Shown piece by piece: positions 10,555-39,811 of a stretch of DNA of 64,000 bases. Every line of letters begins with the position of its first letter. Position 1 is the first letter of the stretch. A model generated the notes under the pieces. That model did not search any database. It had not been told where the DNA came from and was given only the letters and a program-made list of their open reading frames with translations. The DNA comes from Halocafeteria seosinensis (lineage: Eukaryota; Sar; Bigyra; Bicosoecida): positions 327,145 through 391,144 of the forward strand of contig LVLI01000005.1 of assembly GCA_001687465.1 (NCBI GenBank), read 5' to 3'. The position numbers were made by a program, and so were the translations under genes.

Positions 10555-12384
10555 TTATGTTTGGACGCTACCGTTTTGGTCTCCCTCCTTGTAGTGCTGT
10601 TGGAGTTTCCGGCTCTTTTTCTTCCTCTTGCGTGCGGTTTGGACGGAGTCCTGGAATCCATTCTCCTGCAAACGCAACTTGGCCAGACGCTGAGCTGTAG
10701 ATACCCGTTGCATCCTGGCAAGAGCCTGTTTCTCCTCTATTCCGGGAAGCTCCTCCAGATTTTTTCCTATTTTTTCTTCGATGGCGTGTACTCGTTCTAC
10801 ATCATATTGTGTGACAATAGAGATTGCACAGCCCTCTTTCCCAGCTCTGTAGCACAATGTGAGAATTCCGACGGTGGTTCATACAGTCCAAGTAGTGTGG
10901 ATAGACTTACCTCGCTGTTCGACCAACGCGATGAATATAGTCTGCACTCACTTGCGGGAGATCGTAATTTACCACCAGGTCGACTTCTGGTATATCTAAG
11001 CCACGAGAGGCGACGTCCGTCGCAACTAGAATTTTAGCTAATCCAGACTTAAAACGCGAAAGCGAAGCCAAGCGTCTTCGTTGGTTCATTAAACTGTGCA
11101 GCGGCGTACAGACGATTCCCAATTCGACCAGCGTCTCTGCAATCAACTGGCAGGATTCACACTTAGCAACGAAAATTATTGCGGAATTAAAACGCCTAGC
11201 TTCACCGTCCTCATCGTCGAAAAAAAACTCTTCTGCATTCTCTCCTTCCCGAGCTCCCTCTTTGGCGGTAGTCGCGGATAGTTGTTTCTTCTTTTTCTTG
11301 TTCCGCATTCGCTTGGTTTCTGGAGTTTCCAAGGGAACAACCAGGTCTAATATACAGCTAAGGTAGCACAACTTCACCGCTTCAGGAACAAACACAAAAT
11401 ATTGTTTTAGCGTCTCTACAGTTGTGGGAGGAACGTCCATGTCATATCGGAAAGGGTTTTGCAAGTACAGCGAATTAAGCTTCTTTAGGTTTTCCGTAAG
11501 GGTGGCGGAGAATAGCAAAGTCTGCCGGTCGCCCGTTGCATGTTCCATGATCACACTAAGATCAGGGGCGAAACTCAGTTCCAACAGCCGATCAGCTTCG
11601 TCAAGTACAAGAAATTGTAGGCGCGATAGGTCTGGCGGCATAGGGTTTCGGGTTAACATATCGGCCATTCTTCCAGGCGTTGCGACGATTATGTGTGGCT
11701 GTTCCGACAACGCTTTACCTTGCACTACCATATCCATCCCTCCTACGACTACCGTCACTCTTACTCCAAGTTGCGCACCTAAAGCTTGAAACTGTTCGTG
11801 AATCTGGAACGCTAGTTCTCTCGATGGAGACAGAACCAATGCGAATGGTCCAAATGGGTCTTCCGCTAGTTTTTGCAGGATAGGGAGGGCAAACGCAGCA
11901 GTCTGCAGAAGCAACGTTGCGTGAACGACGTTAAGTGTACACGATAATAGTGATAGCTGTAACAGAATCCACCCACCTTTCCGCTACCGGTAGGTGCACT
12001 TGCCAGTACGTCGCGCCCTTCGAGAATTGGAGCCACGCAGTTAGCCTGTACGGCAGTTGGTGTCTTTATGCCCATATGCTGGCATGAATCTACCAACCAA
12101 GGGGCTAACCCGAGGGAACGAAAACCGTGTTGACGCTCCGGAGCATTAACATCGGTTCGATCATCAGCGCTTTCCTGTCTTCTGCCATGTTCGCCTCCAT
12201 TCTGCTCTTTTCCGGCAGAGGCTTTCGAAGACGCAGACGAAGCATGAGTTGCGTCGTCGTTGACTTTCTGAGATGTTGTCTGATCTGCTGCCGTATTGCG
12301 GCTAAAGAGTTGTAAAGAGTCTTGTGTCTCATCCTCGTCGTCAGAGGACGACGAAGCAGTAGAGTCGCGGTGATGTTTGCTCAT
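10555..12384 (-). CDS. DDX49: DEAD-box RNA helicase, DDX49/Dbp8 type
   Basis: Dbp8/DDX49 is a nucleolar helicase required for small-subunit (18S) pre-rRNA processing. Exons are 11977-12384, 10911-11902 and 10555-10846 (introns of 74 and 64 bp), giving 563 residues; human DDX49 is 483. After about 80 acidic, Ser-rich residues come the Q motif region (GIKTPTAVQANC), motif I APTGSGK (ends at residue 136), PSRELAFQ, TPGRM, VLDEADRLLE, SATL, ATDVASRGLD and HRVGRTAR. The C-terminus after the last intron (ISIVTQYDVERVHAIEEKIG) matches the Dbp8/DDX49 tail and ends in a basic RKRKKKSRK stretch. An insertion between the two RecA domains contains a Lys run and an acidic EEFFFDDED segment. The last GT-AG join lies right after GRTAR; without it the frame would stop early. 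Confidence 0.92.
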
Positions 12385-15836: not shown

Positions 15837-18800
15837 ATGAGGGATAGGAGTATTGCGCTCCAGGCAGCTTCGATAGGAAGCTTTTGGAAGCTGTTCTGCT
15901 TCCTTAGCCTTAGTGGCTTATTCACTATTTCGACGCAGCAGCCTGCTAGTCCCTCTACAGGTGAGCTCTGCCTATCTGCCGACTGGTTGACTTTGATGCG
16001 ATCATGGATTATCATTCGCTTCGTATGTGAATTCTCTGCATATGCAGTGCCATTGGGAATATGGACAGTTCGCCCTTTATCCCCAGCTCTCCTGAGACCC
16101 GCGAAAAGTTCGTATAATTTTCACTTCTTTTGTAGTTGCCAAGTGAGCTAGTGGACTTCACTTACGAGTTTCAATACAGGCAATCAGTGGCAACATGTAG
16201 TCGACACCGAAGTTAACTTTACGCTGGCAGAGGCAGGCCCAGTATATCTCTCCTTCCATTTGAACGCTATGGCGCACAGCAGCAGGCCAACCAACGATTT
16301 TGGAATGGTTGCTCCCCCTGATCTGCTACTCGGCCGACTAGTTGTGAACGGAGCTCCATTTCGGCAGTCTGGAACTTCGGTCTCGCCAAATCTGTTTCAG
16401 AAGGAACCCATTCTACATTTACAAGGGGGGGTGGCTTTAAGGCTTCCCAAAGGAGACCACCATGTGGCACTCCAGTGGAAAGCACATGGGGAAACTGTCG
16501 ATATGTACAGCTCCACGCCAGATGGAAAAACTGGACAGTACACAACACGATCTGTCATAGTACGACAGGATAATGACATTGTTTATAGTACCACGTTGAC
16601 CCCGAAACAAACCATGTCGGAACAAGGTTGGACCGAAATTGAGAGTGTAAAGAATTATGACGGCGGACGACAACTCAGCGGAGAATATATTCTGAGCGTT
16701 AGAAGCTTCCCGAACCGACTGGTAAAAGGTGCGTACTGTGAAAAATGCTGATGCTGTAATAGCCATGCTCGAATTGTTTCCGTTTCCGATGCATTTCAGA
16801 ATTAGGACAAGGATCAATGATATCGGCCAGAGTTACAGTGAACTCGCATCCGCTGGAGGGAAGCGAAACGCACTTCCAGACTTCTTCTGTAGCGGCCACA
16901 TCTGTGACACTCGCGAGCAGCTTTTCAATCCCGCCTTTTGAACGGAATGCAACCATATCACTGCAGTGGAAAGCCAGAGGTGAGAAGAAGACGTGGAGAG
17001 CAGACCCAACAGTTTTGGACGGTTTCTCAGGGGGACGCATACTCGCTATTTTCAATCCTCGATCTCAAACCCGTGCATCCTTGTTCCCCTCTGAAGATCC
17101 CTCAACAGACCCATTTGTCTGGCAAGACCTTCCTACCGGTGTTATCGTCAACAGCGTCAAGGGTCGGGGAGCTTTTCATATAAGTTATACAATAGATCCC
17201 CGAATTTCTAGGACGGCAGGGATTTTCAAGGCCATGCTAGCGTTTCGGCTGACCCTCGACGATTCGGTCTTGCCCCGCTCAGTGGTGCAAAGTGCCGTTG
17301 ATTCCCAGCACCTACAGAGAATAAGTGCGAAAAGTGTTCACCAGCCGGTGGACACAGGAACTCACACTATACGCTTGCAGGTCAAGGCCGTAAACAGTTC
17401 GCTGTTCTATGGTTTCAATAGCCTCGTCTCTAATGTTATGGACCTTTTTGAAATCCGAGTCTTATTCTCTGACAACATTGGCTTGAATCACGACCCTGAA
17501 ATCATAAAAGAACGAATGCAGTTGCCACTGGTTACCCTCGAGGACGATAACCTGGATATGAGTGGTCTTTACTTCAGGGACATCGATCAGAACTTAATTG
17601 AAGACATGAATGTCCAGATAGGAATTTGTCTAGCATTTGGTAGCTTCAGAGAGCTCTTACTACATAATGACAAGTGCTTCAACAAGACTGGATCCATAGC
17701 GAAAATGAACCAGCTCATGGACCGTCTCACTTACGTTCCCCACGAAGACTTTTTCGGATACGACACATTCGTTGTGGAAATTGATGACTTAGGCAACGTC
17801 GGTAGCGGGGGGCCGAAGCAAGATCGCTTAACATTGCCTATTGAAGTGGTTCCGGTAAACGATCCAGTCCGATTGAACACGACAACGTCTGTGGATATCG
17901 AAGAAGGAGGGAGCATTTGGTTACCAACACTCAGTATACTGGACAATGACCAAGCCGGCCTCGTAAATTCGAGTACGACGGTGAAAAACATGAACTACAC
18001 GCTGGAGTTAGAAGCGTCCTTCGGGCGCTTTCTTGGGCAAGATAGTGTTTGGAAAGCATCAGATATCGTCAACGTTTCCGCTGATATAGACCAGTTGCAA
18101 GCGATATTTTCTGATATACGCTATCAAGTTCCTCGTGGTTTGAAGCCGAGTAGCAACCCCCATTTATCGCTGAGAGTTTGTGATGAGGGAGCGTTCGGCG
18201 TAGAAGATGCAATTTCAACTTTGAAGCCCAGAAAACAGAGGAAAAACAACTGCGCTGAGACGAGAATCAGCGTTACTATATTGCCTGTGAACGATGCCCC
18301 CCTAATTGAAGCATTCCCTCAACAGGTGGTATCATTGAATGTGGAAGGTCTGTCTTCTGCCCACAAAGTGGTCGGAGCCGCTCAACACATTGACATCCTC
18401 AAGACTGAATCTATAGAAATCTCAGGCAAGTCTCTTGTCGACGCATTGCAGCAATCGTCCATTACAATTTCGCAGAGTAGTGATGCGGGGGGTTGGACTG
18501 CTTTTCGACTAGTCAACCAGTCTGGTAACACTGTTCCTGTTGACTTCTTCCTAAGCGTCGGGAAGAGAACACCCTCCATTAGTATCCACGACGAAGAGAT
18601 GGTTCTTTCCGTAGAGAGTCAAGAGCATATTGAAGTTCCGTTGATGCAAAACGCATCAGGGAGGAGTTTAAAGTGTGTATTTATAGCAGTAGTGGACTTT
18701 TCAATTATTCTCGCCGACATGGATTGTGACGACAGCTGTCTTCAGTCATCCCGACCAAAATATTGCAAAATCACGCCTTCGCAATTACACGCAAGAACCA

Positions 18801-21800
18801 ACTCCTCCACCTTCTATTTCGCTGCTTCAGATGAAAACAACGTATGGAGCAATTTTATATTGGTCAACTTGCAGGTCTCTTCGGAGGAGGAGTCGGAGTT
18901 TGCCCAGAGTACTCTCCCCAGCGACTTTGAACAATTCGTCCAAAATCAGAACAATAGTGCAGTTGCCACATTCTCGGGGATACTACGGAAAGAGCTCCCG
19001 TTGTCAAGGAGTATACTTCTGCAAGTGGAGGGAAGCAACTTATGCGAAACGAGTATTTCTTCTACGTTACACATATCATCACAGGATGCTTTTATATCCT
19101 TTTCACATACGGAATCCGATATGGATTCAGATTGCCGCTTAGTTAGTCTGCGATTTGATCCTCCGGAACCGTTTGTTCTGTCCAAGTCAACTTTGGAGGG
19201 GTATATTTCTTTGATGGCAGACCGTTTCATTGGGAGTACTACTGTTTTCCCTCTCAAACTGATCCCGATTCCCTGGATCCATAGCGCACAATTCGTCAGT
19301 GACACAGTGATTAACGTTTTTGGAAGCGGATTTATCCCGCCCTCGTCAAACTCTCACTGTGGTTGCATTGTTTCACACGGGCAGGACGATGTTCCAGCAA
19401 ATTGTACATGGCACTCGTCGACTGAAGTGGCTTGTACATTGACAACAGAAGCGGNAAAAATGGGCTGTTGTAATGTTATGATATCAAATAATGAGCGCTC
19501 CTTGTCAAGATCTTTCCAGGTATGCCCGAGAGATAAACCAATTGTCGATGACGTGGTTCTCTCAAGCGAAGGAATCCAGGTAACTGGCAGTGGGTTTCAT
19601 GCAACATTAGGGATAGGCTGCGAAAGCACGACGTTCTTCTTCGCCTTAGTGGTCAACGAGAGCTTCATGTTGTGCCCACAGACGACTTTGGCCAAGTCTG
19701 TCAGAATAGTGCACCAGGGACACGTGTTGCACCAGTTGGAGTCTGATCCCGCCGAGAGTAGTTACGTCGTGGAGCGGTGTCAGTTAGAAACGGGTACAAT
19801 ATATACTAGTTGCTCCGCAAACATTTTCCAACAGTTCAATGGCAAGAGAACGAGCTCACGTGTATTATCAAAGGAGAGGCTATTGCATCTTTCTCGCATG
19901 CTGAACACGAATCGCTACCAGCAACCAGAGGTTGTCAATGAAGTCAACAAAGCTGATAAGACAACAGCAGACTGTGCCTCACGTCTAGTAGCAGTTGCCC
20001 CACGGCAATTCCAGACAAAAGATGAAATAAGGGTCCTCACTCGGTTTACAAAGGTCGCCAATTGTGGGTACCCAGTTTTGGCGGTTGGTACTATGTTATG
20101 TCGGATGATATCGCTGTCACAGATCGACAGAATATGTTTCGCGGATGGTTTGCAGCCCGGAGCTTACCCAATCACTAAAGAGGGTAGGCATGGTAAATTT
20201 AAAACGACAGAATTTTCCATTGAAGTATTTGAAGATGTCCATCCCGGAATTGTCTCTCACTCGATAATCAGTAATGAGTCCTTTAACATCGTGGGGAGTA
20301 ATTGGCGTGGCCTGTCGGAGAGGCAGAATTTGGAATGCATTGCGAAATCCCAAAAGGATGGTGCGAAACAGGTCGTTCGATTTGAAAACGTTACTAGGGA
20401 TGCTTTTGAATGCATTTTTCATTTTTCTTATGCCATATGGGGTCAATGGGAAATTTCTGTTGTCTTTGATGCACACGAACTCTTGTGGCGGCAAACACTA
20501 GCTATTCCTCCTGTGCCCCGCCTGAGGGCTACGCCTAAGGCGATGCTTGTAAAATCGCTGAAGCATATCATACAGCTTGAAGCAGAGAATCTGTTAGAGA
20601 ATACTCGAATCGTATGCAACTCCACTGAAGCTAAAGGGAAACGGCGTGGAGAATATTCGATCATCTTCAGACTCCCATCTATGGAAACGGGAGTACATTC
20701 TTGTGCATTGACAAACGACGGTGTGCATTACAGCGAGACCATCAATTTAACGATCCTTGTGACTCCGAAAGTGAAAGCGTATCCGTTGCAAGGAATAGTT
20801 GGACAACCAATGTCGCTCCGAATAGAGAGCACTATAGCGCCACGGTTATGTCGGTTTTCGGATTCACAAATCAGTGCAGTTACTGCTACGTGGAGTGCCT
20901 CCGAGAAATCACATGTCTGTTTGCTTCATCCTAAAAGCTCAGGCAACATCTCTGTGGAAATCGCGTTCGAAGACAAAGAGTTTCAGGACAGTGGATTGAC
21001 CGTTGAAGTGTTCGTTCGTCCACGCATAACCGAGGCAGTTATGTTGCCTGTACGCAGAGCACTAACAGAAAAGCAAGGACAAGCAGGTTCCGGAGTGACG
21101 TTCGCAGTTTTATTCAAGGGCGAAGGCTTCCATCGAAGAGCAGTGTATCACTGTAAGACAGAGGGGACTCAACAATCAGACAGTGTAGCCGAAAGAGATC
21201 AGCATGGACAACCCTACTGTTTTGTAAACCACTCGCTGGCTGTCGTATCCAAGGCAGTTTCTTTACACATAAAAACTACTATGTTGCACTACAAACTGCT
21301 AGGAGATCCCTATTATGCGGAGATTAGTGATCTTGCACCTCGCCGTGTGGTAAGCAACTATACAAAGAGCTTCATGGTAAGAGGAGCTCATTTAGATATT
21401 GGGACAGTTCTATATTGTAATGTGGAAAGAGGTAACAATTCTTTGGTCATTCCAGCGAAGTCCGTCGACTCAGGAAGAGTCAGGTGCCTCAATCCACCTC
21501 AGTTGGCCGTGGGTGTATACGAAGTCTCACTCATCTATGAGTTTGCGGAATTTAGCACAAACTCGGTTGAGTTGGAAAGTATCCTTTTGCCAACAGTATC
21601 TGCGGCTCGAGCCTACATCTCCCCCCAAAACCGCATCTTCGATTTGCTCCTTTCAATTGAGAATACAGCACTGCGAGTACGTTGTGCTAACCGAGGGTTT
21701 GAAGTTGAGGCGACAATCCTTAATGGGACCTCTTTGATATGCAAAGATTTAGCGTACTTCGATGAGCATCTTTCCAAAACATTTAGCCTCTGTATCGGGG

Positions 21801-24800
21801 GGCTGTGTATGAACGTCCTGGAGAATGTGACAGTCCAAGAAGAGATAATTGAACTATCATCTTCCTCGACCGACAAGCGCGATCTACCAAGGATACGCCA
21901 TGGCTTTGCTCTTTCCAATTCAAGCGGAACAGTAGTGCTTGCGTTGTCCCTCAGTAGCTCCGGTTTACGTCCACAATGCGAATTTTCCAGGCAGATAATT
22001 GTGAATGGTGTTAGGGGTTTCAACGGATATGAGTACTGCACATTGCCAGCAGATGTGTTACCCAGCCAGTTCACCGGAGTGCTGTTTCAGCATATCCCAG
22101 ATCGGCGTGTTTTCCCTGAGAATTGCTATTTTGTCGGCGGTAATTGCATCTTACCTGTCGTAAACCATTCTCTCCCTTCTTTGCAAGGAGAATGCGAGAA
22201 CAATCGGAGCTATGCGCAGTCCATAAAGCCAAACGTAATGGTTGCACCCGCTATTTCTTTCATTCAGCCTACGCAGATTGTCAACGGCATTGAGCATAAT
22301 ATTTTTGTAAAGACTGCTGACGATCATCCTCTCTTGAGCTGTGAATATGAATGCTTGCCGACCTCGAGGAAGAAGGTCACCATGGCTATACCTGCTACAG
22401 AAAATGGGCACCTTTGCGCTGTGCAATGCGCAAACGGCTCGCGAGAAGTTAAACTAACAGTTGCCATTGCGGGTATCCAGAAATCGCGAGAGATCACACT
22501 GCCGGCTGTTGACTTTGGTCAACACAAACTAAGCAGTTCATGCATATTGGCAAATTTACACTCTCGGATTCAAATCTCCCACTCAGCGCAGACAGTATTC
22601 AAGAGACCGGTGTGCTATTTCAACGAAATCGCGGTCGCGGGATTCTCGATTACCCCAAACATCATTCAATGTGAAACCCCTAAGTTTCCCGAGGACCATC
22701 GCGAGGTTGATTTCGCACTGTCTTTTTCTCATTCAAATTGCTTTAGTCCTGTGAGGAAGAGCATACGAGTTTTACCAGAAGTAACGTCAAACGTTATATC
22801 CGGACGCGTTGACGGAGAAGTGCTCGAGATTTTCATCCGCAGAGACGACTCTCGTCTGGAGGAGGGGTGTACGCCGATGCAGTGCCACATCAAACCTTCA
22901 GGCACCATTGATGCTCCGATATTGAGCAGTTCACGTCGGCTAAATGGGACACACCTAGTATGTTCTATACAATCACCTGAACCCAGGGCATCCGAAGTCT
23001 ATGCAGCTTTTTCCATAAGTGGCAGTGGCCCGACTGCGTTCCGAAGAGTCTATTTGAACCATGAGAAGGTGGTCACTCCGCTTGCAGTCCAACCGGCAAT
23101 GTTTTTTGATAGTTACAGCGGAGCTGTCAGTATCGAACTTAAGGAAGTCACACGTCCCGATGATATGAAGGGATGGAGATGTATCTTCCGAAGCCAAACG
23201 TCGAGCGCTACCTCGCGTGCACGACTGATCACTTCAAATATAATCTCGTGCAGTCCTGGTTTGTTAGCATTCGGGAGGTACAATGTAAGCCTCGTTGATG
23301 GAGGAAGCAAGCTTCATTCAAGTGTTCTTCCGCTTACCGTAATCAAGACTCCTCGACTTACTGGCGTATCAACGAGACACTATCAAAGCCTTAGGGTAAC
23401 GGGATATGGATTTCTTGAGGGTGTCTTGTCTTGTCAGCTCTGCGGGAGCCTGCTCGCCGGAAGTTTCAGATCTAGAACAGAGGTTTCGTGCTTCATACCT
23501 CTTGAAATGGGAAATTTTGAGAATTGTCCCGTAACTGTGGAGTATTTGGACCCTCCTGGAAAAATTATCGGATCTTCAGTAGTTTCTCCGCAGCATGAGC
23601 CATGCAAAGAGAAACGACTCGTCGAAACAACCGAATACATAGTGGTTGACTACGCCGAGCCAGAACTCTTCTTAGACCACATCCAATGCTGGATAAACGA
23701 CGTTGAAGTGGACATAAGAAGAGCGGAGAACTCCATAGCTTGTAGTCTTCCCCAAGTATCAGAGGGAAGAAGCAGAAGTATGGTAGAGCTTGTCCTAAAG
23801 AAGGATTCTGTGGTAGAAGAGTGTTTACATGTTAAATTCGTCCCTACTCCAGTCCCCATATCCGTGGACCCTTCGCTGGTAGTATATGGTAGTCATGAGA
23901 CACTACGTGTTCAAGGCACCCGTTTCTTCGAAGATGTTCGGTACCAGGCCTTTGTGCCGGGCGAAAGCACAGTGTTGGACTGTTTGGTTCGTAGTTCTAC
24001 TTCACTGGATTGCGACTTTTCTCCCAGCCGTACGGGACTGCATGCTTTGTCGTTGGCATCGGGAACTCCTGTGAATGAATCCATTCTGGAGTTGGTTGTG
24101 GTTGAGCCGGTGAAACTTCATACCACCCAATCGAACTGTGATGAAGCCTGCCACATATCTGTATCATTTTTTGGGACAGGCTTTTGTGATAACGTTCCCA
24201 TCCAATGTGTGGCCGACAATCAGTCGTATGTATTTCCAAGCCTTAGCCGAAACTGTCGGAGCTTGTCCTGCTCCTTTCAAAAAAGCAGCATTGCAAGTGT
24301 GGCTGTTAGTTTCCAGAGCGGGGCGACTATGATGTCCATTATAGGGCCCCGAACGTGTTGTTGGAACTACGCTCCACCCCAGGTGGTATTTCTGGAGCCT
24401 GAAAGCCAGTGGAACGAAGATGTTCCAATGTACCATGTTCAGGAGGCCCAAATGGAGTATGAAACTGCAGAAACCCTGTTGCTTCAAATTGAGGGGCACG
24501 GGTTCTCGAGTATCCAGGTTCCCCGTTGTGTGGTTACCGGAGTTAATATGGCCATCAATATTTCGCTAGCTTGCGGAGTCTTGCATGATTCATTAATTGA
24601 AGCACATGAAGTTAAGCTTGTTCCCGCAGTGTATCAAGTTGCTCTGCTGGATCTCTCGAATGGAAGGAGTAGCAACACAGTCACTTGCATACTGGATCCC
24701 GTGCCGACGATTTCATTCTTCCTCCCGCGTATTGTCCAAGATACCGGGGGAGGCATTGTATCTGTTCGTGGAAGCAACTTTGTCAGGCGGATTAAATTTC

Positions 24801-27800
24801 AGTGCCACATTGGAAGCTTTGTGATACCCGCCGTTGTACGTGACTCGACGACTATATATTGTCGCCTTCCATCTCTACAGCCCAACTCAAGTGTACGCGT
24901 TGGGATCGCTACCTCTAAGCTTCTCTTGGAAGCCGACGGCAACTTGCAGGTGATATCGAATGACATCATTGTACAGGATCTGCTCGTTACGAAATGGAAG
25001 GAGCAGGCAATCTACTTTGAGTGCCCGAGCTGCCAGTTGTTTGCTTCGGCGAATTTATCCTGTCTCTTCTCTGGGAGAACGAAAGCTGTTTTCCACTTAG
25101 ACAAGCACTTCTACGAGTGTGTTGTTGTTGTTCCTGCTGACGTCAAAGCAGGAAGCATGCTCACGTTTTCCTTACTTCACAATGAATACGGTACAATGCC
25201 ATTTATGGATACCGTCGGCGTAGTCGCAGCGCCCGAGGTATGGGACTATTCCCCGAAGGTGCTAGCAAGGACACGAGACACAACATTTTCCTTATTCGGG
25301 ATCTTCCCTTCAAGCGCAAATTTAAGTTGCGTCCTTGGAAGGCGCTCGTGTAATACTGTGGCTATACTCACGTCCCAGATGCGTTGCATATGTTCCCCGG
25401 ACGCTAGTCACAGCGTTCTCCCTCTTACGCTCTGGTTAGGAAATCGGTTACTACTAACATTGGGAAGCGTGCCGCAAACTTTCTATAAGGTCGTTCACTC
25501 AGTTGAGAGTGTTATCGAACAGAGTTTTGCGTATTTTGATATCCAAGGAAAGAACCTGGACTCTCGCTCAATACAGTGCCGACTGAACCTGGGCTCTCCT
25601 CGCTCCGCACTGTGCTCTACTCAATCAATGTGCGGTTGTGGATTCTTCTTTGAGAACAATGGTAGCCAGATCCTTCTTGATATATTTGAGGATAGTCACT
25701 TCCTCTGGAGACATAGACCGGAGCCCACTTCCCGGGGGAGCCAGGTACGTGGTTCTGAAAGTGCGGTATTGAACCAACCACCATCGATGATCGTCGACTC
25801 CTCAACGCCTCTCCTTGGTAGTGGCATTGGACTTGATTTTCGATATCGTCAAGCGGAAGGATGTAAGATTACTTGCTGCTTGCTGGAGCAGTGCGTGGGT
25901 GCAACGACAATTGCGCCAGGAAGAGGCATATGCCGGTTTCCTCAACGGTTTGGCAGCTCGGCCCTGATTCATGTATTGTGCGGGATAAAAACCGTCCATA
26001 GATCCGCTCTACCGACGCCGCTCAGGGAATCCGAAAGTGTTGTGTACGTTGATTCTCTTGCTCCAATTCCACTTTCGTGGTCGTATTGGCCTGATCTTTC
26101 GCCCGTATCGCGAAACATGGACTGTTATGCTGGAAACAAAGTCATTGGATATATTTCTTTTGGGGGAGATGAAATATATTGTCATCCTGACAGAGAAAAT
26201 GTCGTATTCAATTCTATACAAGAAACCCTTGACGCCACTATCACGGCAAAGACCAGCGCTGGTACCGTTCTCGCTTTCCGGAATGTGGTTTTCCGACGGC
26301 CACCTATGCTTACGGACTTTACAACGGTGTACGTGGCCGCTAACGAGTCTGCATATATCCGCTTGGATGGCTTCTTCCCTGTATCGTCTGATCTCCAGTG
26401 CCTGGTGGACGGGCGTTCGTCGTTTCCTCCAGTTGTCGAGGCCGATAGCGTCTTCTGTAAAGTTCGCCTTCCAGCTGGGGAGCACACACTGAGCATAGCT
26501 CTAAGCGGAGACAACAACACCCACTCCGCGCAACGTGTGGTAACAGCTGTTCCTCGCCTCAGGATATACAAGATTGAGCAATACATTGACTCTTCAGAGA
26601 TCCTTGTGCTCAGACTTGCCACGAGTGATCTTTCGTCACTTCAGCGACCGATATGTTTGGTTAACGGGAAGAGCTACTTGGCACGTGTGATCACTTCTCG
26701 AATAATATCATGTTCGATTTCCACCTCTGCGGAACGATTGAATATTTCAATTGGGGCGTCAACGAATGAACGCCAACCATTAAGTGAGGAACAGGCTGTC
26801 CCTCGACAGGAACTTCCGAGGGTTTTGACGTTTTCACCAGCTGTACTACATTCCGGAATGGTACGAGAAATGAAGGTTACACTTGATACCGCTATATCTT
26901 CTGCGACTTTGGCGATACAACCAAAACACAAAGAGTTGTTCTCGGCTACATTTGCTTCTGCAGATAGAAAGATACTTATCTTCCACGTCATGATTAAAGC
27001 ATGCGCCTCGTTACTCAGTGCCGATCTGTCGCTTCGAATACGGACGAATTTTGTCCGTATTACCCACCAATTGCCATGTGCTACTGCTCTGTCTCTAACC
27101 TCAGTTTCTCCTTCAACAGCACGTACAGGGGAGGATGTTGTTGTAAAAGGGAGCAACTTCCGACGAGTGTCCGCATACTTCTGTGCGTTTATAGGGGACC
27201 GTACTAGGGTGATAAGTAAAGCAGTCTATTTGTCTCCTTCGCTACTCCACTGTACGCTTCTCGAAATCGAACCGGGAACCTATCAGTTGGAAGTGAAAGA
27301 CGAGTTTGGAAGCGTCAGCAGAGACGCGTTAAGTTTTACCGTCGTAGGCCCGGCGCGGATCACAGGCTGTAGCCCTTGTGTTGGATCTCAACTTGGAGGA
27401 ACGAAAATAACCGTGACTGGTCAGAATTTTCTTCCTTCGGACCAAATCTTCTGCCAATTTGGAGAATCTCATTCGAGAGCTTTGGTGACAGGCTCGGAGC
27501 AAATCGTGTGTCGAAGCCCTCCTGTAATTGAAAATTCCCTTTTCGCTGGTACTAATCTCACGGTTTCATCCAGAACCACAGTGGATGGTAGTCTCCCCTT
27601 TTCCTTCTATCGCATTCCCACCGTGCTCAGTGTTACCCCTACTGTTCAGGTATTCGGAGATAAGTCTCCAATACAGATAGTCCTCAAAGAGCCAATTTCT
27701 CCGATGCCTATTCCTGCTACATGTAGGTTCTCAATCGCAGGGAGTAAAGAGGTCATGGACGAAACGGATGGAATCACTGATGGAACGGTAGTGCAATGCA

Positions 27801-30800
27801 CTGCTCCTTCTACCAAGAAACTACGGCGTAGTGACGAAGAGATGTTTTCTGTTCTCATTCATTTTTCGTTGGATAGCGGAGATCATTTCTTTCAAAGTGG
27901 GACCCAAGTAAGAGTAATACCATCCCCCACACTGGATCGTTTCGAGCCTTCATCAGGCCCGGTGATTGGTGGAACAAGTGTGAACGTGTTTGGGAAACAT
28001 TTCTCTCAACTAGAAGGACTTGTATGCACGTTTGGGGATATTTCAGTCGTACCCATGTTTGTTTCAACTACGCAAATTGTATGCATGTCACCTGCGCAAA
28101 CTTTGGCAGGCGATGTCCTCTTATCAATTTCCTTCGGAAACGTGAGCAGTTACAGTGACAGACCCTTCACATACTATTTTCCAGAACACATTGAATCAAT
28201 TCATCCACTCCGTGTTGATAGAGACGGAGGAGAGACGTTGGTATTCCGTGGAAGCAATTTCGGCAGCTTTCCGGAACTAAGCTGCTCTTTTGGCTCATCA
28301 AGAATTAGGGCGACGTTTGTTAATGACTCGACGGTCGCCTGTCGAACGCCAATGCATCCGACCGGGAAGGTAGTTGTTTCCCTGGCAAATAATGGGCAGA
28401 ATTTTGTTCAGTCAGATGTTGTAGTCACGGTGGAAGAGACCGCAGTGATCTCTTCGGTCACTCCAAGTCTGGGATTAGTTACCGGTGGTTTCGTGATGTA
28501 TATCATGGGATCCAATTTTCGTAACTCTGACTCTCTGATTTGTTCTGTGGGTGACGCCCGAGTGGGTTGTACTTTCTGCAATGAGAGCGCGATCAAAGTA
28601 TTCGCCCCGCCTTCACCATCGGGTTTAGCTGAGTCGTTCGCAGTAGAGATTTCTCTCAATGGGCGCGACTTTAGTTCTAATTTGAAACAGCTTCACTATT
28701 ATCTGGAGCCTCGTATTCTTCATGTTGTTCCTGGGATTTTTTGGGCGAACGAAAAGAGTACTATTCAGATTACGGGTAGAAACTTTCTTTCTACCCGCTC
28801 CTTGATGTGTAGAGTCACGAGCCTGGTTGATAATACTTCCTCGAGTGTATCGCACCAATCGGAGGCCCAGTTTTTGAGTTCATCTAGACTAAGTTGCTCG
28901 ATACCACCATTGGCTATCGACACTTATCTTGTACAGATTTCTTTTAACGGAAGAGACTTCCATCCAACAATCTCCGAAGAGCTACTCAGTCAAGATATCA
29001 GGGGGGTGCATCCTCAAATCGCCTTCGACGTCGTTAGTCCAATCGACCTTCAAACTGTGGCTCCATTGGACGGTGTGGTTTACCCTGGGTCACTGGTGCT
29101 ACTGCGTGCTGCAGGGCTACCACCTGCAGGTGTGATCAATGTAATCTGTCTAATGGGTTCTACGATCACCCATGGGACTGTCTCTGGAGACGTAGTAGAA
29201 TGCAAGGTACCGACGATTCTTCTGGATGAAATGCTCTTTCTGTCCCTAAGCCTCAACGGACAGCAGCTATCTGAGGTGATCGCTTTACACGTTGCCAAAC
29301 CTCCGGTGATTCAACAACTTGCACCGGCGCTGTTGATCACTACCAAAGCTACAACTGTTACTGTTAAAAGCGAGCTACGCAGCGTCGTTGATGTTGAGTG
29401 CAGCTTCTTCGAGGGGTTGTCAAAGCTATCTGTGAGATCTAATGCCGTGCTCATAGATAATAGTACGCTGCAGTGTGTCGGACCAACTTTATCAAACTTT
29501 ATTAGGGAGACTGGTGTTTTGGTCAGAAATTTTGGCTCAGGGGATGCCTTCCGGAACACAATAAAGCTCCCTTCGATACACCTCCGATTACTCGTTAGGG
29601 GCGTTACCCTCTCATCAAACTCCATGCCTATTCAGTTTGTTTCCCCTCCCGCTTTGTGGGCTATTATGCCGGAAATTTGGTTGGAAAACAATTCCATGGT
29701 GACGATTGACGGATTTTTCCCGCTTAACTCTGATGGTCTATCTTGTAAGATACGTAAGAGAGCTTCAAAAGAAACGGTGGACACATCTCGCTTGCTTGTG
29801 TCCGAGGAGTCTAAAGCCACCTGTACTTTCCCCCACGGTGTGTTCACTCCTGACAGGTACTTGTTAGAGTTGACTGTAGCAGGAGTTACGGGGAATTTCG
29901 GGTCGGTGGATTTCGAGGTTGTAATATCTCCAAAACCAGAAAGTGTCACCCCAAATACTTTCTCTGCCGACACATACACTTTGCTGAGCATTTTTGGGGC
30001 CAATTTTATGGCTCGGAATTCCTTACGAGGGGCAACAGACGGAGGACTCACCAGCTCTGCCGCGTGGCATTGCAGGGTGAACGAAGTATCCTTTGTGGCC
30101 AGCGTAGTCAGCGATCAAGAACTGCGGTGTTATATCCCTCCTCAGAGCGCTGAATTGACACGACTTAGACTGATGTTCAATGGTGCTCTCTTATCGTCTT
30201 GGGAACAACTTATGCCAGTGAGGAGGGGTGTAGTGATAACGAGTGTTCACCCAAAGATATTCACCACAGGGGAAATTCGTACTTCGGTAAGACTCGCTCC
30301 TACGAACAAAACCCCTTCTCTCTGTTCCATAGGACCTATTCAGTCTCTCATAAGCTCTTGCGGCTTAGATGACTGGGGCATCATATGTGGATGCAACGTA
30401 TCGTTTGGTTTTGCAAGAGGGAGCCTGAGTTGGGGAACAATTCCATTATCTATTGGGTTTGAGGATGGAACTCAGACGACAAACGCCATTGGTATCAGAG
30501 TGCTTCCCCAACCAGTGGTGACCTATATCGACGCTTCGGAGCTTGGAAACAACAATAACGGGCTTTTGAGAATTCGAGGGTTTGGATTTGTCAATAGCAA
30601 CGCGTTGAGGTGTGTTTTCTCCGTTGGACGGAAGTTGTCTTTCAGAGTTGTTCCGATTTTCAACTCATCAAGAGAGCTCTACTGCCCGCTTGAAGCCAAA
30701 CATATCAACAGCATAGGTTCTACAAACAGTGTCCTTGATGTAAGAGCCGGAGTCACCAACGATAATTCTTCGGTTGTATGGTATGCTCTTCCCGTTGTAA

Positions 30801-33800
30801 CCTCGAATTCCTTTTCTCTGAGTGGATTAAGTCCGACGGTAGTGAGTCCTCAGGGTGGTACAATTGTTTCGATAACGGGGTCACGCTTTTATGGAAGCCA
30901 AGCCTCATGTGTCGTTGGAATTCAAGAGGTTCCTGCAACTTTGGTCTCACAAACGATGCTACAATGCCTCACTGTGCCAAACCGAGATCTACATCGTCAA
31001 TTCTATGCCATCTGGGTGAAAATAGATGGGGTCTGGTCTAAGAACTCGCTAAACTATTCATATCACAGTCCACTGCAGCTTTCGTCTATTTTACCTAGCT
31101 CTGGTCCAAGCAGTGGCAATACTACAGTGAATATTCTACTGCGGGGAGCTGGGAACTTCCGCCGAGTGTTCTGCAAGTTCGGGGAAAGTGTAGTCCAAGG
31201 AACTGGAATCGGCGAAACGATTACCTGTGTCACCCAGGCCACCGAACTAGCAGAACCCGTGGACGTAACTGTGTCCGTAGACGGCCAGGTATTTTCTGCG
31301 TCTGCCCTTCGTTATACGTTCTATTCTACTCCTATAGTGACTTCCCTCAGCCCGAGAGAAAGTTGGTCTGGCGTACCCCTACGGATAAGGGTATCAGGAC
31401 TGCAATTCTTCTGCTCACCAAATCTGACCTGCAGCTTCGGAGCAACATCGTCTCCCGGTCGCTGTATACCTGGTTTCATTCTGTGTACGTTTCCAGCTAT
31501 GTCTCCAATGGAGGGGCCAATATCCCTGAGCTTCAACGGTAAAGACAAAGAAACGTCTAGCCATTTCGACATGATAGTATCGAAACACCCGACAGTCTCT
31601 TCAGTGTCCCCGATGGTTCTTGTAGCTAACCTGAAGAAGGACATCAGGATTGAGGGGAATAGTTTCGGGATCGGTACCTGGTATTGCGTATTCGAGGGGA
31701 AGAGAGTAAAAGCTTTGCGCCTTAGTGAAAGTGAAATGCTTTGTTCGGTGACACCTGAGTCTCCGTCGCACAATGCTTCGCTTGGTATAGAGTTGCAGGG
31801 GGTTGGGCTACTCGAAGCCGCTACTGGTCTGAGAGTAACCAGTATATTTGACAGTTCTGAATCTCGGTTAACTAAGTATGCGATGTTCCGGGATGATGGT
31901 AGGAACGACGTTCTTCATGTTTCGGTTGAGCGTGCGGCTGCAGACACGGGAAACTGCTTTATCGGAGACTTGCAACTGCCTACTACTGTTTCGAACGCGT
32001 CCGCAAACTTAGTCTGTCAAGTTGATCGAGCTGCATTTCCTCGCATAAAAAACAGCTTTGTCTTGGGAGTCGCTTATCCCTCTGTCGTATCTTCTCAAGT
32101 ACATGTGAAGGTTTTACAAAGGCCCATTGTCACCATGGTTGAACCTCTCGTTGCATCAACAAGCGGAACAACATTATTGAGTTTGGTAGGAGACCAGTTT
32201 CCCTCTCACGGCATCGAATGTATGATAGGAGACGAAGTCGTAGCGGCAGCTCAGGTCAACCCACAGCTTCTAAGTTGCCGAGCCCCGAGTCGTAGACCAG
32301 GAGTTGTACCTGTAACTCTATTGCTATCAAATGGATCATCCTTTTTCAGCGGATTCCATATTGAATATAGAGTTCCGCCCCAAATTTTCCAGATGTCCCC
32401 TTCGTCGGGATCAATTACTGGAGGTACTTTGGTAACGGTCGTTGGAAGTGGCTTCTCAAAGCGGAATAACATGACATGCAACTTCGGAACGGTTGACACG
32501 CCTGCTGTAGATGTCGAAAATGAAAATCAGATGCGTTGCTTATCACCGCCCTTCGTTGCACCTCGAGCTGTTCCGTTTTCTGTGTCAATTGGACCGATTA
32601 GCTCCCCCGCTGCTGCAGAAGCTTTCTTGTACACCTTTAACCCGATAATTCGGCGACTGACCCCTTCTACAGTAGCTACGGGAGAGCCGTCTGTCGTGCT
32701 TGTGTTTGGGTATTTTCCAGCCCTCGAAGATGTCACACAAGATGGTTCCTGTAGATTTGGTGAATTTATGTCCCCGATGCGTGTGTTGTCCCTAACGCTG
32801 GTGGAATGCGCCCCCCATTTCCCTAAGGGTATTCGAGGCTTTACCTCTCCTCTGGAGCTCACATTCAATGGGCTTGACTTCTTCACCTCCGGACTAAGTA
32901 TTACTGTCAAAGAATCAATTGAGATACTTAGTATATCACCTTCGACGGGCAGCGTCTCTGGCGGAACGGTCGTAACTCTTCGAGGTAATGGTTTTGTGAA
33001 TTCAATCTTCCTGACTTGCAGGTTTGGCAACGTGGTAGTTTCAGCTTGGTATATCAACTCAACGAATGCGTTTTGTGCATCTCCGCCGAAAATCCCGGGG
33101 AGCACACCGCTTTCTTTGTCAAACAATGGTCTTGATTTTTCCAACAGTCTTGATTTCGCTTATTTCGAAGATCCCTCTGTCTTCGATTTGTTCCCGCAGT
33201 ACACGTTATTTACAGGACAGGTACCTGTCATGGTCAGGGGAGCGCATTTTAGAAATACGACCGACTTGCAGTGCAGTTTTTCAGAGCTTGTCGGATCAAC
33301 GACGGTTAGAGCAGTGTTCTTATCCTCTTCCCTAGTTGTGTGCTTCGCACCTTCTCGGATTCTTCAAGGATCTTTCGGCTCTGCCGACCTTATCGTCCCT
33401 GTCGAAATCACCAACAATGGATTAGACTACAGTAATAGTCGTAACTTGTTCACGTTCTTCAGTGTGTGCCCTGTAGGGAGCTACTGCAATCATTTAGAGA
33501 TCATGCCAGCTCCCAATGGCACATTTTCCTCGGGAACAGGAAATGCTAACTACACACTGTGCCCTCCCTCTACGTTCCAGCCTCGGGCTGGGCAATCCCA
33601 GTGTCTGCTATGTCCTATTGGATACTTTTGTCCAGATTTTGGGTTGGCTCAGCCGGTTATTTGTAAAAGTGGTTACGTCTGTGACGAAAAGGGCTTGGTT
33701 ACTCCGTACCGGCCATGTGTCCCTGGACATTTTTGCAACACAGGATCGAAAACAAACGACCAGTTTGATTTAAAGTTAGATGCTACAAGATTTGGCAAGG

Positions 33801-36800
33801 ATTCCGTAACTTGGACACGCCAGTATAATGGAACTCTTATCTTTAACAGTACATCACGAGAGGAAACCAAGGTGGATTCGACTTATCCTGAGGCCCACAC
33901 ACTGGTAGTTCACTGGACCTCTGCAGGTGATGTTCTAGCAGAAATGCCATTTCCGTGCATGGCTGGTTATTATTGCCGCTCCGGTGTGGCGCATGCCCTA
34001 CCTTCTTCAAAGAACTTCAGTACTCCTCAGAAGTGTTTCGATGGATTTTTTTGCCCTGCTGGCTCCGCATCTCCGCAAGGTTCTGGACCATGCCCCACGG
34101 GCCACTATTGCCCACCAGGGTTCAGGGCGTTCGTGTGCCCCACTAAACACTATTGTCCTTCAGTGGGAAATCTTCAGCCTAGAGAATGTGAACCTGGAAC
34201 CTACAATCCGTTTGAAGGACAGTCAAGATGCGCAGTGTGTCCGAAAGCTCATATATGTCCCAGAAAGGCAATGCGGGAACCCATCATTTGCCCTGCGGGC
34301 TTCGTGTGCAACGAGAAGGGGCTGATTCTTCCTGTTGTCTTGTGTCCACCAGGCTATATCTGTGATTTAGGGACATCAATGCTTCCTTCCGAATCTGAAG
34401 GCTTTCAGCCGGACGGAAGAAGATCCTTATCAGAGGTTGAACAGGAGATGATCCGGCAAGAGATCGTTTTGGAACTGTTAGAGATTCCAAATAGTTCTAC
34501 GCTTCATATTATTGAATCTATAGATCTCATAGGGACAAAGTGTCAAGCTGGCACATTTTGTTTGGGAGGGGTTGCCTCGAACAAGACACTTCCAGCATTG
34601 CCAATATTTGGTGTAGAAGGATTGCGATCGCCACAGCCTTGTCCGGATGGTAAATTTTGTGGTGAAGGCACAACCAGTTCTTCAGGGTCTGATGCTTGTC
34701 CTCCAGGACACTACTGCCCCCGGGGTGCTTCCACCCCACTTGCTAGTCTGCGTGGCACGTTCTCATCTGGTTCGGGGAGCGTAGCTCCTTCTTTATGTTT
34801 CCCTGGTACATATGCTCCGGTCGGGGGTCATGAAAATTGCCGGGTTTGTCCGAGTGGCTTTAGCTGCGATGGATTCGGTACTTACAGACCCTCCATTTGT
34901 CCAAAAGGAACATACCGAAGCCAAGCCGACAGGGCATCCTGTAGGGTATGCCCCCCGGGAACTTTCTCCGACCGGCTGGGGGCAGTTTCTGTAACTGATT
35001 GCCTCCCGTGTCCCGTAGGCAGAATCTGCGGTGAAGCTGCCATCAAAGACTTAGAGGTTGGATCGACTGCTTGTCCTGAAGGCTTCGTCTGCGGACTATT
35101 CACCACTTTAGATTCGATGTTTGACCACACTTGTCCTGCTGGATATTTTTGTTTCGAAGAAACATCGCCTAGTATGCAGCTAGACAATATCTGTGCTGAA
35201 GGCAACTATTGCTTGAGACGAACAAGGGCATTTCTAAGTACACGAAACAAGTGTTTTGTGAACCACTTCTGCCCGAAGGCTACAGCGGATTCTCAATCCG
35301 TGGAAACGCTCTGTCCTCCAGGGACTTCCTCCCCTGCAGGCTCTAGTTCGCTGTTACAATGCGAGATAGCTCCAGTTGACGTTTGCGACAAGAGCCCACA
35401 AAGGCGATACTATGACACGTTTGAGTACCATTCACAAGGAACCAGACGAGTAATTGATGATGAGAATACGGTCGTTCAAGTCCAGAGAATGATTGACCCC
35501 ATAAATTCCTCCAGGAGCGATCCGTCTTGGAATAACGACACTGTTTTCCTTGAGACATTGTGCCCCTTGGGACTAGACATTTCCGAGGTGGCGGAAGAGA
35601 CCCCTACCACCAATATCACAGTAGGCGGTGTCGGTTTTGAAGGTCTCTTCCCCTTCCCCCCTATCTGCAGGTTTGAAGGTGCTGACTCTTCGCCCGTGCA
35701 AAATACATTAGGTGTAGTACACACAGATGTCACGATGTCGTGTCCCTTGCCACCGCAGAGTGAGTTATTGGATCGTCAACATATTAAATTAAGGATTCAT
35801 GGTATTGGAAGCTCGCAATTTTCCAATTCCTTGGAATTGCCCTTGGATAAACCTCGAGAGAACAGTGAGGAAGAATGTTTGGACAGTATCGCAGGCCTTG
35901 GACTAAAAGCGCTTCAGCTTCCCCAATCGTTTTCTGAACTCCCAACGAAACTGCGATGGTTCGCAATGACTGGTTTGTCCACGGCTCGCATAAGTTTCGA
36001 TTTCACGCATATATCCCGAGAGGTGGTCTACGGTGAACATTTTTCGATAGCCATATTTGTAACACCTTCAACCTGCGTGAATACGAAATGCGATGAAACC
36101 AGGGAGCTCATTCCTAACAGGGAAGAAAATCAAGAACTTCTTGAAGAATCTCCTTGTGTCAAGCCAATTGAGCTGAGCCACTGGTTTGAAAGTGATGAAA
36201 TCGACAAGCATTCAGCTCTCGAACTAGTATTATTTTCTCTGGAGGATTTATTGGTTCACATCGAGATGCATTTGTTACACGGGTTGTATATCCCTGTTGC
36301 TGAAGAGCTGTTTAATACTTCTACAATCTCGGTCACTTCCCCCAATCGAGCAATAAGTAATCTCGGTGCAGGAGACCGACGGTTGAGACACCTATCCGAT
36401 CATTTAACGTCGCAGCAGAAACTGGTTCCACAGGAATATATTTTTGTTGTGGTTTTCACGCGCGGCTCTTTGAGAAGCATATCCGCTCCGCTGAATATGC
36501 CTCCCAGATTTGCCGAGCTCGAACGAGGAAGAGTGCTCGTAGGTTTCAACGCGTCTGAGGGAATACCATGGGTACTTAATGATCCTGAAGAGCTCCAAAT
36601 AGGGCCAGAGTACTGGGAACCTCCCAGAGGTGAATTATTGGGAAGTATCGACAAGTATCGCGAGATATGGCATGAAGTAGACACGGAAAGCGGAAATCCA
36701 CAGTACAGATTCGAACGGTTGTTGCTTCCGTTCTTCCCTTACTTATCAAGTTGTCGTGGATTTGATTCCTATATTCCCATAGCCGAGTTTACCGAAGATA

Positions 36801-39800
36801 AGAACGCTTGCGACGTACCTTCATCTGACTTTGTTTCGGAGTCGCGAAAGAATTTCCAGGCTTTGCCCCATCCCGATGACATAAAAGTTGTAGGCCCAAG
36901 TCAAGTGTTTCAGAGTCCGGTGGGAGATACATGTTCCCGCTCTATCGAATGTAAATACGAGGAAGATATAACAACTGTCGAGACCCAGCCTCGTTGGTTC
37001 GAGGTTGATACAGGGGAAACATTATTCGAGATAATTAGAAGACCTATCACCTTGGATGAATTCTTCGCCAACGGGAAAACTATCGACAAAGTTGAAGACG
37101 AGATTGGGATCGATGCTTTCATTCCCGTGGCCGTGGATAAGTCTGCAGCTCGAAGCGAGTTGCGGGCACACTGTGGCAGACAATGCTTTCCGAGAGATGT
37201 CACACTAGTGCTGGAATACTATCAGATAAGTCTTTTTGAAAAGCGTCTAATTCGAAGTGACGCTATTTTTGAGACATTCGATCGGGATACTGAAAACAAG
37301 GACTATAGGTTTAGTGTGGTCATGTATCCTCTCAATTGGCTGCAGCTAGTGATCAACTTTGCCTTTGACCGACCCACGTTTCTGTCTATATTTGTGGTGG
37401 TTGGCGCGATGACATTGGGCTCTATTATGATATACTGGGCAATACATCGACTGCTGACGCGGCAGGCTGCACCACCTAAATTCCGCTTCTTAAGTTTCTG
37501 GAGTATTGTCGTTCCCGCTCCCACAGTGGGATTTATGTTTTCCATTATACCAATGGCCTTGGTTATAGCGTTTTTCTATGGAATTATTAACGGGAGTAGC
37601 CAGGTAACAGGTGTAAACGAGGAGGACGTTGGCTTTACCGGTTTCGAAAATATTGTTGGGCATTGGATGGATACAAGTGTGGATATTAGAGAAGTAGACA
37701 GCATTCGCAGTGGCCGAGTCGGGTTTTGTTTCCTTGTACTGGCAATGTATTTGCTGGTGATTGGGTCGCGCCTTTTGGTACCCAGAATCGTCTCGAAGAC
37801 GGAGAAGCGTAATCTACAGAAACCGGCTACTGATGGAAGGGTATCGATATGGCATCCGACGGGTTGGAAACGGAGCAATGTTGTGCTTGTCAGTGTACTC
37901 ATAGCCATGTTCCTCCTCTTTGTTGTGGAGTTTTCTTTCTGGCGGAACTATGGGGACAATGTCTGGTACTTCTTGGTCGTCCTGAAAGTGATTGCCAGAA
38001 TACTGAGCTCCATACTGGAAGCACACTTGAGAGAGTATCTATTGATTTTGCCCCTAATGGCTTCAATCAACATAATTACTGCCTTAGTTACACTGGGTGC
38101 AAGTGATTTCGCAGATTTTGTGTTCGCGTACGCCGTAGAGTATGCACTAATGGTAGCAGAGCGCGTGTACGTTGGCCCAGCGGCAGACGCTATGGTACAA
38201 TGGACTGTTAGAAGCTGCCGAAATGTAAAAAACATGGCTATGAACTTCATCAAGCGACACAGTCGGTTAACACTAAAGCAGGAAGTGGAACTCGAGCTAC
38301 AGCAAGCAAAAGAATTACAGCAGTTGCTCCTGAAACCGAAGGCCATCGAGGGTGAAGAAACGGTGGAACCGATTCTAAGCGCGTTCGGTGATTATACTGC
38401 TGACCTAGTAGCACTCTTTTTCCATCCGTTTACAGTGATACTGTTAATGGTCTTTCGGAATGACGTAAAGATACCTGATCTCTACGGTATCAAAGCTCAA
38501 GATATCGAATTTTACTTATGGTTCTTTGTTGTGGTCTTTGGTTTTCAGCTAGCGGCGGATATGTTCCTTCATAATGTGTTGGAACTGGTTTATGGATGGA
38601 AAATCCATGACTACCTCGTGTACGTCCGATATCGCTTTCTCCAGCGTGAGACTCGATGGAAAGGAATGGAGGAGAAACTGGACGAATGTATTGACGAGAG
38701 CATGCGATCTTTGGATCAGATGTGTTTTTCTTCGCAGTTTTACTTAATGGTGTTCGTGCACACAAGCGGCATCGTATTTGTCGTGTTTGCTGTGGAGATC
38801 ATGATCCGGGCTGAATACAACATGTTTGGAGATCCGGCAGTTTTCATTTTAGCCCCTTTGCTGCTAATCTTTATATACATCCTGAAGACAATCATTGTCT
38901 TTCTGGCTAATATTTGTGGACTTTGGAAGATTCGAGACAAAGACAGCAGCCCATGGGCTACAGACATAGACCAGTCAGAAGGATGGGACGTTCCTGATCT
39001 TGACGAGATGCTCGAAAAATCTTCGGCCGGGAAACCGAAGTACAACACGTGGATCATGAACCAACGCTTGGCCACCGAGACGTTCAGATTCAAGTTTCTT
39101 GACTATAACAGAGCATGGCTGATATCGGTACTTCCAAAGATACTTACTCCCCGTACGCTCGCCCGGTCTCGACCATATCTCCTGGCTCAGTTTGCCCAAA
39201 TGTTGGCAGATTATGATGAAGCCGAAGAGAGTTCAGAGGGTGAAACTGCTAGCGGGAGAAAGAGATTCAAACAGGTAACTCTCCCAGAAAGTGGAAAGGA
39301 CATACTAAGAATGTGGCTTGAAGATGCTAGAAAGAGTCTGCAAATGAGAGATTCCGTCCTTGCAACCATTAACGCTGCGAAAACGTCCCTACAGTCCAAG
39401 CAGAAGGAAAAGGTAGATGTAGAGATGATGATGACAATAGACGAGCTAGGGGCTAGATGGCGACAACAGCATCCTCAGGAGTACAAAAATTTCGATCTGA
39501 GGGCTTGGAAGAAGTTTTTCAATAAAAATCAAAAGTATCGAGTTGTTCGCCTAGGGTCTTCTGGTCCCCGCGTGATTGGTTCTCCGTTGTTTTTGCAACC
39601 CGAACATAGAAGGCCGAAACATACTGGTCGTGCTCCCTCATCGAGCCCAACGGCACCCCAACAGCGACTTAGTGCCGCTACCAAGGCGATCGCACAGCTA
39701 TGGTACACTCGCGCTCAGAGTTCGCTTAGCCCTGTCTCCAAACGAACCATTTCTCCGTCCACAGCCGCTATTGCTCGCAAATGGCTACAAATGGTTCGGC

Positions 39801-39811
39801 GGCGACGATAG
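15837..39811 (+). CDS. Giant IPT/TIG-repeat, GCC2/GCC3-repeat multipass membrane protein
   Basis: About 7,894 residues from exons 15837-15960, 16180-16728 and 16800-39811. The first join is the least certain because the 219-bp intron could hide another exon. Order: signal peptide (hydrophobic FCFLSLSGLFTI, about 19-32); three tandem copies of an unnamed beta module (about 65-450); cadherin-like segments ending in PVNDP and PVNDAP (about 575 and 720); a very long run of Ig-like IPT/TIG units (about 1050-5775), most regular in the last third; a cysteine-rich GCC2/GCC3 block (about 5780-6410); a juxtamembrane region of about 650 residues; some nine or ten membrane helices (about 7070-7600); and a basic tail of 290 residues. 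Many N-x-S/T sites mark residues up to about 7,000 as extracellular. IPT repeats recall fibrocystin and plexins, but there is no GPS, PLAT or PbH1 segment. The role is unknown; adhesion or a flagellar surface coat is inference. One base at 19455 is N. Confidence 0.85.
16320..17470 (+). repeat. Three tandem copies of an unnamed N-terminal beta module
   Basis: Copies 1 and 2 share a block around LQWKAHGE (about 16470-16500) and LQWKARGE (about 16960-16985), each preceded by a strand-rich segment (RLVVNGAPF, RVTVNSHPL). Both are followed by a GR/RS-V-I type strand. A weaker third copy has FRLTLDDS and IRLQVKAVNS (about 17240-17400). The first copy lies in exon 2 and the second begins in exon 3. 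I know no named domain with this signature. Confidence 0.6.
27350..33460 (+). repeat. Array of canonical IPT/TIG domains within the giant protein
   Basis: Units of roughly 85-100 codons each start with S/P-x-x-G-x-x-x-GGT-x-V-x-V-x-G-x-x-F and contain paired Cys, one in a C-x-F-G motif and one in a C-x-x-P motif. Clear starts lie near 27370, 27945, 28205, 28455, 30830, 31090, 32395 and 32935. More divergent units of the same length fill the gaps and extend left to about 19270. Confidence 0.85.
33460..35360 (+). repeat. Cysteine-rich GCC2/GCC3 (ephrin-receptor-like) repeats
   Basis: Repeated C-P-x-G-x-Y/F-C, C-P-P-G-H-Y-C-P and C-P-A-G-S motifs recur about every 20-50 residues in the giant protein, as in GCC2_GCC3 families. 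The block sits between the last IPT unit and the juxtamembrane region. Two non-cysteine stretches of 60-70 residues, rich in acid and Ser/Thr residues, interrupt it. Confidence 0.8.
37320..38930 (+). other. Polytopic membrane module of the giant protein
   Basis: Hydrophobic helices are visible near 37340-37450, 37500-37595, 37715-37785, 37880-37940, 37960-38015, 38030-38170 (probably two), 38395-38455, 38510-38600, 38745-38815 and 38845-38925. A charged, Gln/Leu-rich cytosolic loop (about 38215-38390) splits them. I see no pore signature or polycystin motif. The exact helix count and topology are inference. Confidence 0.7.

Follow-up and report, generated by a model that had tools for sequence, protein, structure and literature searches.

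What kind of protein is encoded by the giant gene in the last 64 kb of contig LVLI01000005.1 of Halocafeteria seosinensis, and does any family share its architecture? This stretch, hereafter the window, closes contig C4 (391,144 bases) of a genome assembly of 30.6 Mb in 605 contigs. We find that the gene, judged from sequence, belongs to a family of giant membrane proteins, about 4-8 thousand residues long, found in stramenopiles. As far as our searches reach, the giant protein is real, conserved and undescribed, and is of a known kind, a giant IPT surface protein, set on an unusual multipass base.

Three protein searches returned 10, 69 and 75 matches, giving 143 distinct proteins. The named relatives come from 18 genera, Phytophthora, Nothophytophthora, Pythium, Lagenidium, Albugo, Achlya, Thraustotheca, Saprolegnia, Aphanomyces, Thalassiosira, Cyclotella, Chaetoceros, Leptocylindrus, Triparma, Aureococcus, Ectocarpus, Choristocarpus and Phaeothamnion, all of which we take to be stramenopiles (checked for Leptocylindrus danicus alone). 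The family so far spans oomycetes, diatoms, brown algae and others; no pennate diatom appears among the named matches, which is not a tested absence. In the window protein one chain carries an IPT array, then a Cys-rich block, then a conserved membrane module. The relative P0012 (7,808 residues) is colinear with the main exon of the window gene in two aligned pieces, and the same domain order, at least five IPT copies followed by at least four CPxG-like motifs and then the module, is found in 79 of 79 sequences longer than 4.2 thousand residues (77 fetched proteins, the window protein and a paralogue on contig C24). IPT counts among these giants range from 7 to 65, some of the proteins being incomplete. 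The initial annotation had held that the architecture matched no named family; because P0012 is colinear and all 79 giants share the domain order, that view is withdrawn, and the full-length match that it had named as evidence against itself exists, though in a family that is undescribed and bears automatic names only.

In a tree of 143 of 145 sequences (two were dropped on coverage or length), the window protein groups with P0012, then with P0002, P0013, P0081, P0015, P0014 and P0084. This group neighbours the oomycetes with weak support, and several deep supports are weak. The one other copy of the module found in the same genome lies on C24 (93169-123681), in an uninterrupted frame of 10,171 residues that also holds an IPT array and a Cys-rich block; this copy has diverged, and in the tree it stands in a separate clade, beside P0078 and P0079 (Thalassiosira exigua). 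P0072 (EON65_02100; 7,319 residues), from a metagenome-assembled genome labelled 'archaeon', is placed among the family's other sequences and is probably a mislabelled eukaryote contig. No description of the family's architecture was recognised in the literature searched, whose scope mostly excluded subscription papers, and the term IPT does not occur in the available parts of PMC12223298, PMC12221091, PMC12618581, PMC6678668, PMC5654045, PMC3879662 and PMC4700764. The available part of PMC8204020 describes IPT/TIG proteins on a Phytophthora contig carrying viral insertions.

The gene and the parts of its product are as follows (window coordinates; residues are counted from the ATG at 16817, the start of the exon 3 protein).

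15837..15960 (+): exon 1, with the start codon and what looks like a signal peptide (MRDRSIALQAASIGSFWKLFCFLSLSGLFTIS...), from translation and a GT donor, the signal peptide by eye
16180..16728 (+): exon 2, an unclassified module, the first of the N-terminal ones, from tblastn with relatives (P0034 cleanest) and the splice model
16800..39811 (+): exon 3, which holds the main open frame (7,664 residues from ATG 16817)
17702..18310 (+): PVNDP/PVNDAP segments, weakly cadherin-like or tandem-95-like (NF012211, E 6.2e-7, 29.3 bits, cut-off 90; Cadherin_4 and Big_9 below cut-off)
19280..33454 (+): IPT/TIG array, residues 822-5546, with 31 of the 32 copies at independent E-value (iE) < 0.01, from Pfam TIG, an iterated hidden Markov model (HMM) and shuffles
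33464..35386 (+): GCC2/GCC3-type Cys-rich block, residues ~5550-6190, from PF07699 and positions of CPxG-like motifs
35585..35842 (+): final IPT repeat, standing apart at residues 6257-6342, from the iterated HMM
35957..37369 (+): juxtamembrane ectodomain, conserved, residues 6381-6851, modelled as alpha/beta, from alignments and AlphaFold2
37370..38917 (+): membrane domain, predicted ~11 helices, N-out/C-in, residues 6852-7367, from hydropathy, alignments, AlphaFold2 and topology statistics
38918..39808 (+): cytosolic tail that carries the conserved motif MNQR.TSETFR.KFL.YNR and ends in a basic stretch, from alignments and residue counts

Exon 3 is a single frame, open from 16763. The initial annotation had run one giant frame from 15837 to 39811; one giant surface protein is upheld, while the start at 15837 lies in a different frame from exon 3, so that splicing is needed to reach it. 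A GT-AG model joining exons 1 and 2 to exon 3 from about 16800 yields 7,894 residues. When splice combinations were enumerated, the preferred intron 2 had the donor AAG/GTGCGT at 16729 and the acceptor TTTCAG before 16800, alternative pairs of similar length being possible. Several relatives match exon 2 by tblastn (best 40 of 57 rows), and among the matches listed P0034 joins both exons in one frame, its residues 22-196 corresponding to 16188-16700 and its residues 212-719 to 16817-18334. Exon 2 resembles the start of exon 3 by eye, with an LQWKA.GE motif in both, and has no match in Pfam or NCBIfam.

Across the N-terminal modules and PVND segments no Pfam or NCBIfam model matched above cut-off. 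The PVND sequence noted in the initial annotation is present (residues 346 and 490), with its cadherin-like character resting on matches below cut-off. The IPT/TIG array several thousand residues long is borne out by Pfam TIG (E 1.3e-99 on the central piece of the exon 3 protein). An HMM built from 13 of 14 Pfam-positive TIG stretches of contig C4 (one omitted) and iterated over eight family members found 32 copies at iE < 0.01 and 38 at iE < 1, the isolated last repeat included; twenty shuffles gave none at iE < 0.01 and one at iE < 1. The same iE < 0.01 threshold in a larger database gave 29 copies. The stretches between copies may hold degenerate ones. The array covers only ~4.7 thousand residues, not the 7.9 thousand once assigned to the IPT stalk. 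The GCC2/GCC3 Cys repeats are confirmed as Ephrin_rec_like (PF07699, E 5.2e-12, four stretches), with CPxG-like motifs from 5551 to 6249. A hydropathy scan marks four lone sites in the stalk (residues 615-635, 2571-2589, 3386-3404 and 4093-4111), which we take for presumed buried strands rather than membrane helices.

The polytopic membrane module with a basic tail was correctly recognised at the outset: ~11 predicted helices span residues 6852-7367, and the final 100 residues hold 22 K/R against 1 D/E. Residues 6381-7560 have no sequence match above chance in Pfam, NCBIfam or the PDB; what the module does match, TMEM89 and WASH-7_C in Pfam and XopAI, MIC60-MIC19 and sterol reductase in the PDB, is no better than chance. 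An AlphaFold2 model of the module from a 43-sequence alignment (mean predicted local distance difference test (pLDDT) 78, predicted template modelling score (pTM) 0.74) has an alpha/beta ectodomain, eleven membrane helices (model residues 472-500, 520-545, 577-607, 633-660, 666-691, 694-712, 718-768, 804-832, 847-879, 926-952 and 962-987) and a helical tail. Confidence is 80-96 for most membrane helices and lower for several loops and model stretch 741-800. Averaged over 74 sequences, K/R numbers are 2.1, 6.0, 0.4, 9.5, 7.2 and 6.6 in the predicted-inside loops and 1.9, 0.1, 0.0, 2.1 and 0.3 in the predicted-outside short loops. Most of the inside loops are longer, however, and the mean net charge is negative in four of the six, so the K/R pattern is support for the topology rather than proof. 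The sequons lend further support, as 71 of 72 lie N-terminal of residue 6841 and one at 6925, where an even spread would put 7.7 in the last 824 residues. We infer a module of about 11 helices with the N-terminus outside and the C-terminus inside. Its charged membrane residues and the cytosolic motif are preserved across 127 orthologues.

What might such a protein do? One domain order is kept in oomycetes, diatoms, brown algae and heterotrophic kin, so an important shared role is expected of a giant family that carries automatic names only. We tentatively favour, at somewhat short of an even chance, a tether-and-transducer at the cell surface, most likely of the flagellar membrane. The IPT/Cys-rich stalk would attach to the hairs of the flagellum, to glycocalyx or to a partner surface. 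Through the compact ectodomain, force or binding would be relayed to the base of 11 helices, which could serve as a channel for ions or a scramblase for lipids, arranged as in TMEM16/TMC/OSCA; and the conserved cytosolic tail may dock to the axoneme or a signalling partner. Its place on the flagellum and its work as a transducer are both inferred. The rod or adhesin with channel-like potential suggested at first is, as a putative function, plausible.

The lead for the base comes from structural alignment of the predicted model (VIA-align), in which TMEM16, TMC and OSCA proteins gave the best alignments to the membrane domain, within a list restricted to Foldseek-ranked structures, so that folds missing from it are not thereby excluded. 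Helix directions also agree with the known topology of these proteins. No TMEM16/TMC/OSCA sequence match was found for the window protein, nor for 29 members among the matches listed (25 of 30 families), nor in a profile search of PDB sequences. A single-sequence model of the membrane domain (pLDDT 41, useless) brought up no TMEM16, TMC or OSCA row among 28 aligned chains, and is a poor control because the two lists are not comparable. A TMEM16-like calcium site made of conserved acidic residues is no more than an analogy. We know of no TMEM16, TMC or OSCA protein that carries an IPT stalk.

The mastigoneme proteins in the available passages of PMC12223298 are without a membrane helix; no protein is known to us that fixes the hairs to the flagellar membrane, and the giant family is a candidate for this anchor. 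In its strongest form, which we consider unlikely, the proposal is that a pore of TMEM16/TMC/OSCA type, joined to a multi-thousand-residue stalk, forms a mechanosensitive channel or scramblase on a tether, which would anchor flagellar hairs in stramenopiles and read their load, sensor and tether in one chain, as the missing membrane base of the tripartite mastigoneme.

The best surviving alternative, somewhat unlikely in our judgement, is that the protein is a surface adhesin of general use, or a rod of the glycocalyx, held by a multipass anchor, non-flagellar and without transport, and binds prey, substrate or a partner. The long IPT array with its 71 outside sequons fits this, as do many further IPT frames in the genome, whose TIG matches number at least 144 and lie on 29 contigs. 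Cell adhesion is the heading given to IPT and G8 domains of another heterotrophic flagellate, in a table of genes expressed differentially and highly whose direction lies outside the available part of the source (PMC7852580). The module, however, looks more conserved than a passive anchor would need, in both its charged membrane residues and its cytosolic motif. Moreover, oomycetes, diatoms and brown algae share the module yet are not known to phagocytose.

Less probable than any reading above is a recognition receptor of gametes or zoospores, with a stalk that would give mating or settling specificity. A homologue (P0097) occurs in a transcriptome of Leptocylindrus danicus, a species studied for flagellar genes of its sexual stage in the available part of PMC5654045. 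The wide range of IPT number among the giants, some of them incomplete, also suits variable specificity. Oomycetes, however, whose zoospores are asexual, retain the family.

More doubtful still is a giant relative of meckelin (TMEM67), with Cys-rich domain, beta-rich ectodomain and membrane domain, acting at the flagellar gate. These parts do come in similar order, and human meckelin is row 10 of the VIA-align list (model 131-507 to 318-554, ectodomain and first helix). The whole-module profile scored 31.2 against the genome's own meckelin, the best of 20 shuffles reaching 25.5. Pfam Meckelin (PF09773) has no match in the window protein and matches one of 29 members, P0005, below cut-off (E 0.0037, 15.8 bits, cut-off 25), and meckelin is much shorter and without an IPT array. 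A genuine meckelin gene is present at C308:30287-33165, where one frame matches human meckelin 7fh1 (E 2.9e-13).

Finally, an artefact in which assembly or a frame accident fused neighbouring genes, for which one could point to a single ambiguous base (N) at 19455 within residue 880, is ruled out, with practically no probability left, because relatives are colinear: the P0012 alignment (residues 659-7662) spans that base and the domain order is identical in all 79 giants.

Directly after the giant gene, at 43830-59045 (+), lies a dynein heavy chain frame of 5,071 residues, whose second half has axonemal types as its best-named PDB matches, e.g. DNAH12, DNAH7, DNAH1 and DNAH3. A six-frame search of the genome found one radial spoke protein 3 (E 1e-83) and no chlorophyll-binding protein. 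With this dynein and the stramenopile names among the relatives, these results let us read the source as a heterotrophic stramenopile that bears flagella. At 2548-12384 the Pfam neighbours are ordinary: a polo-like kinase (-), a prolyl-tRNA synthetase (+), a Suv3-type helicase (-) and a DEAD-box helicase (-). Many of the genome's TIG matches, whose count is a lower bound from 150 of 219 candidates, fall in open frames of 3-10 thousand residues, a large set of giant IPT genes. One frame of 8,524 residues with TIG matches (C250:34734-60305, -) has, by eye, a different C-terminal multipass domain after a Cys-rich cluster, and may be another giant stalk on another base.

Among known proteins, the closest are stramenopile 'IPT/TIG domain-containing proteins' such as Pythium oligandrum Poli38472_002229, Thalassiosira pseudonana P0051 and Albugo laibachii AlNc14C165G7869, which are like the window protein in domain order, colinear matches and C-terminal module and differ in stalk length; no described function was found for them. 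Fibrocystin and fibrocystin-L (PKHD1, PKHD1L1), which are linked to animal cilia, likewise have a giant ectodomain with an IPT array. Unlike fibrocystin with its single membrane helix, the window protein has ~11 predicted helices, and no G8 domain was found in it (Pfam scans at E 1; a G8 search of the genome listed nothing on contig C4), so membership is rejected. Fibrocystin-L-like frames do exist elsewhere in the genome: four of 3.4-3.8 thousand residues on contigs C279, C150 and C210, each with two G8 and TIG matches, both C279 frames and the C150 frame showing by eye one hydrophobic stretch near the C-terminus. Polycystin-1 and polycystin-2 are rejected, as Pfam scans found no REJ, GPS, PLAT, PKD repeat or PKD channel domain at E 1 (exon 3, in four pieces that overlap or adjoin) or E 5 (exon 2); the initial annotation was right to set the protein apart from both groups. 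The plexin TIG models PF17960 and PF18020 match the IPT array, yet at E 1 the scans listed no further domain of plexins. Three Phytophthora mastigoneme proteins of Sig1/Mas type have EGF-like domains and no membrane helix, according to the available part of PMC12223298; with ~11 predicted helices and no EGF model at E 1 in Pfam scans, the window protein is not of this type. A possible functional parallel is the PKD2-SIP-mastigoneme complex of Chlamydomonas, in which, as the available part of PMC10846610 describes, a channel is joined to extracellular hairs and the axoneme. There channel and hair are separate proteins, whereas the window protein, without a polycystin domain, would, if the fold lead is true, be a natural case of tether and mechanosensitive-type pore in one chain.
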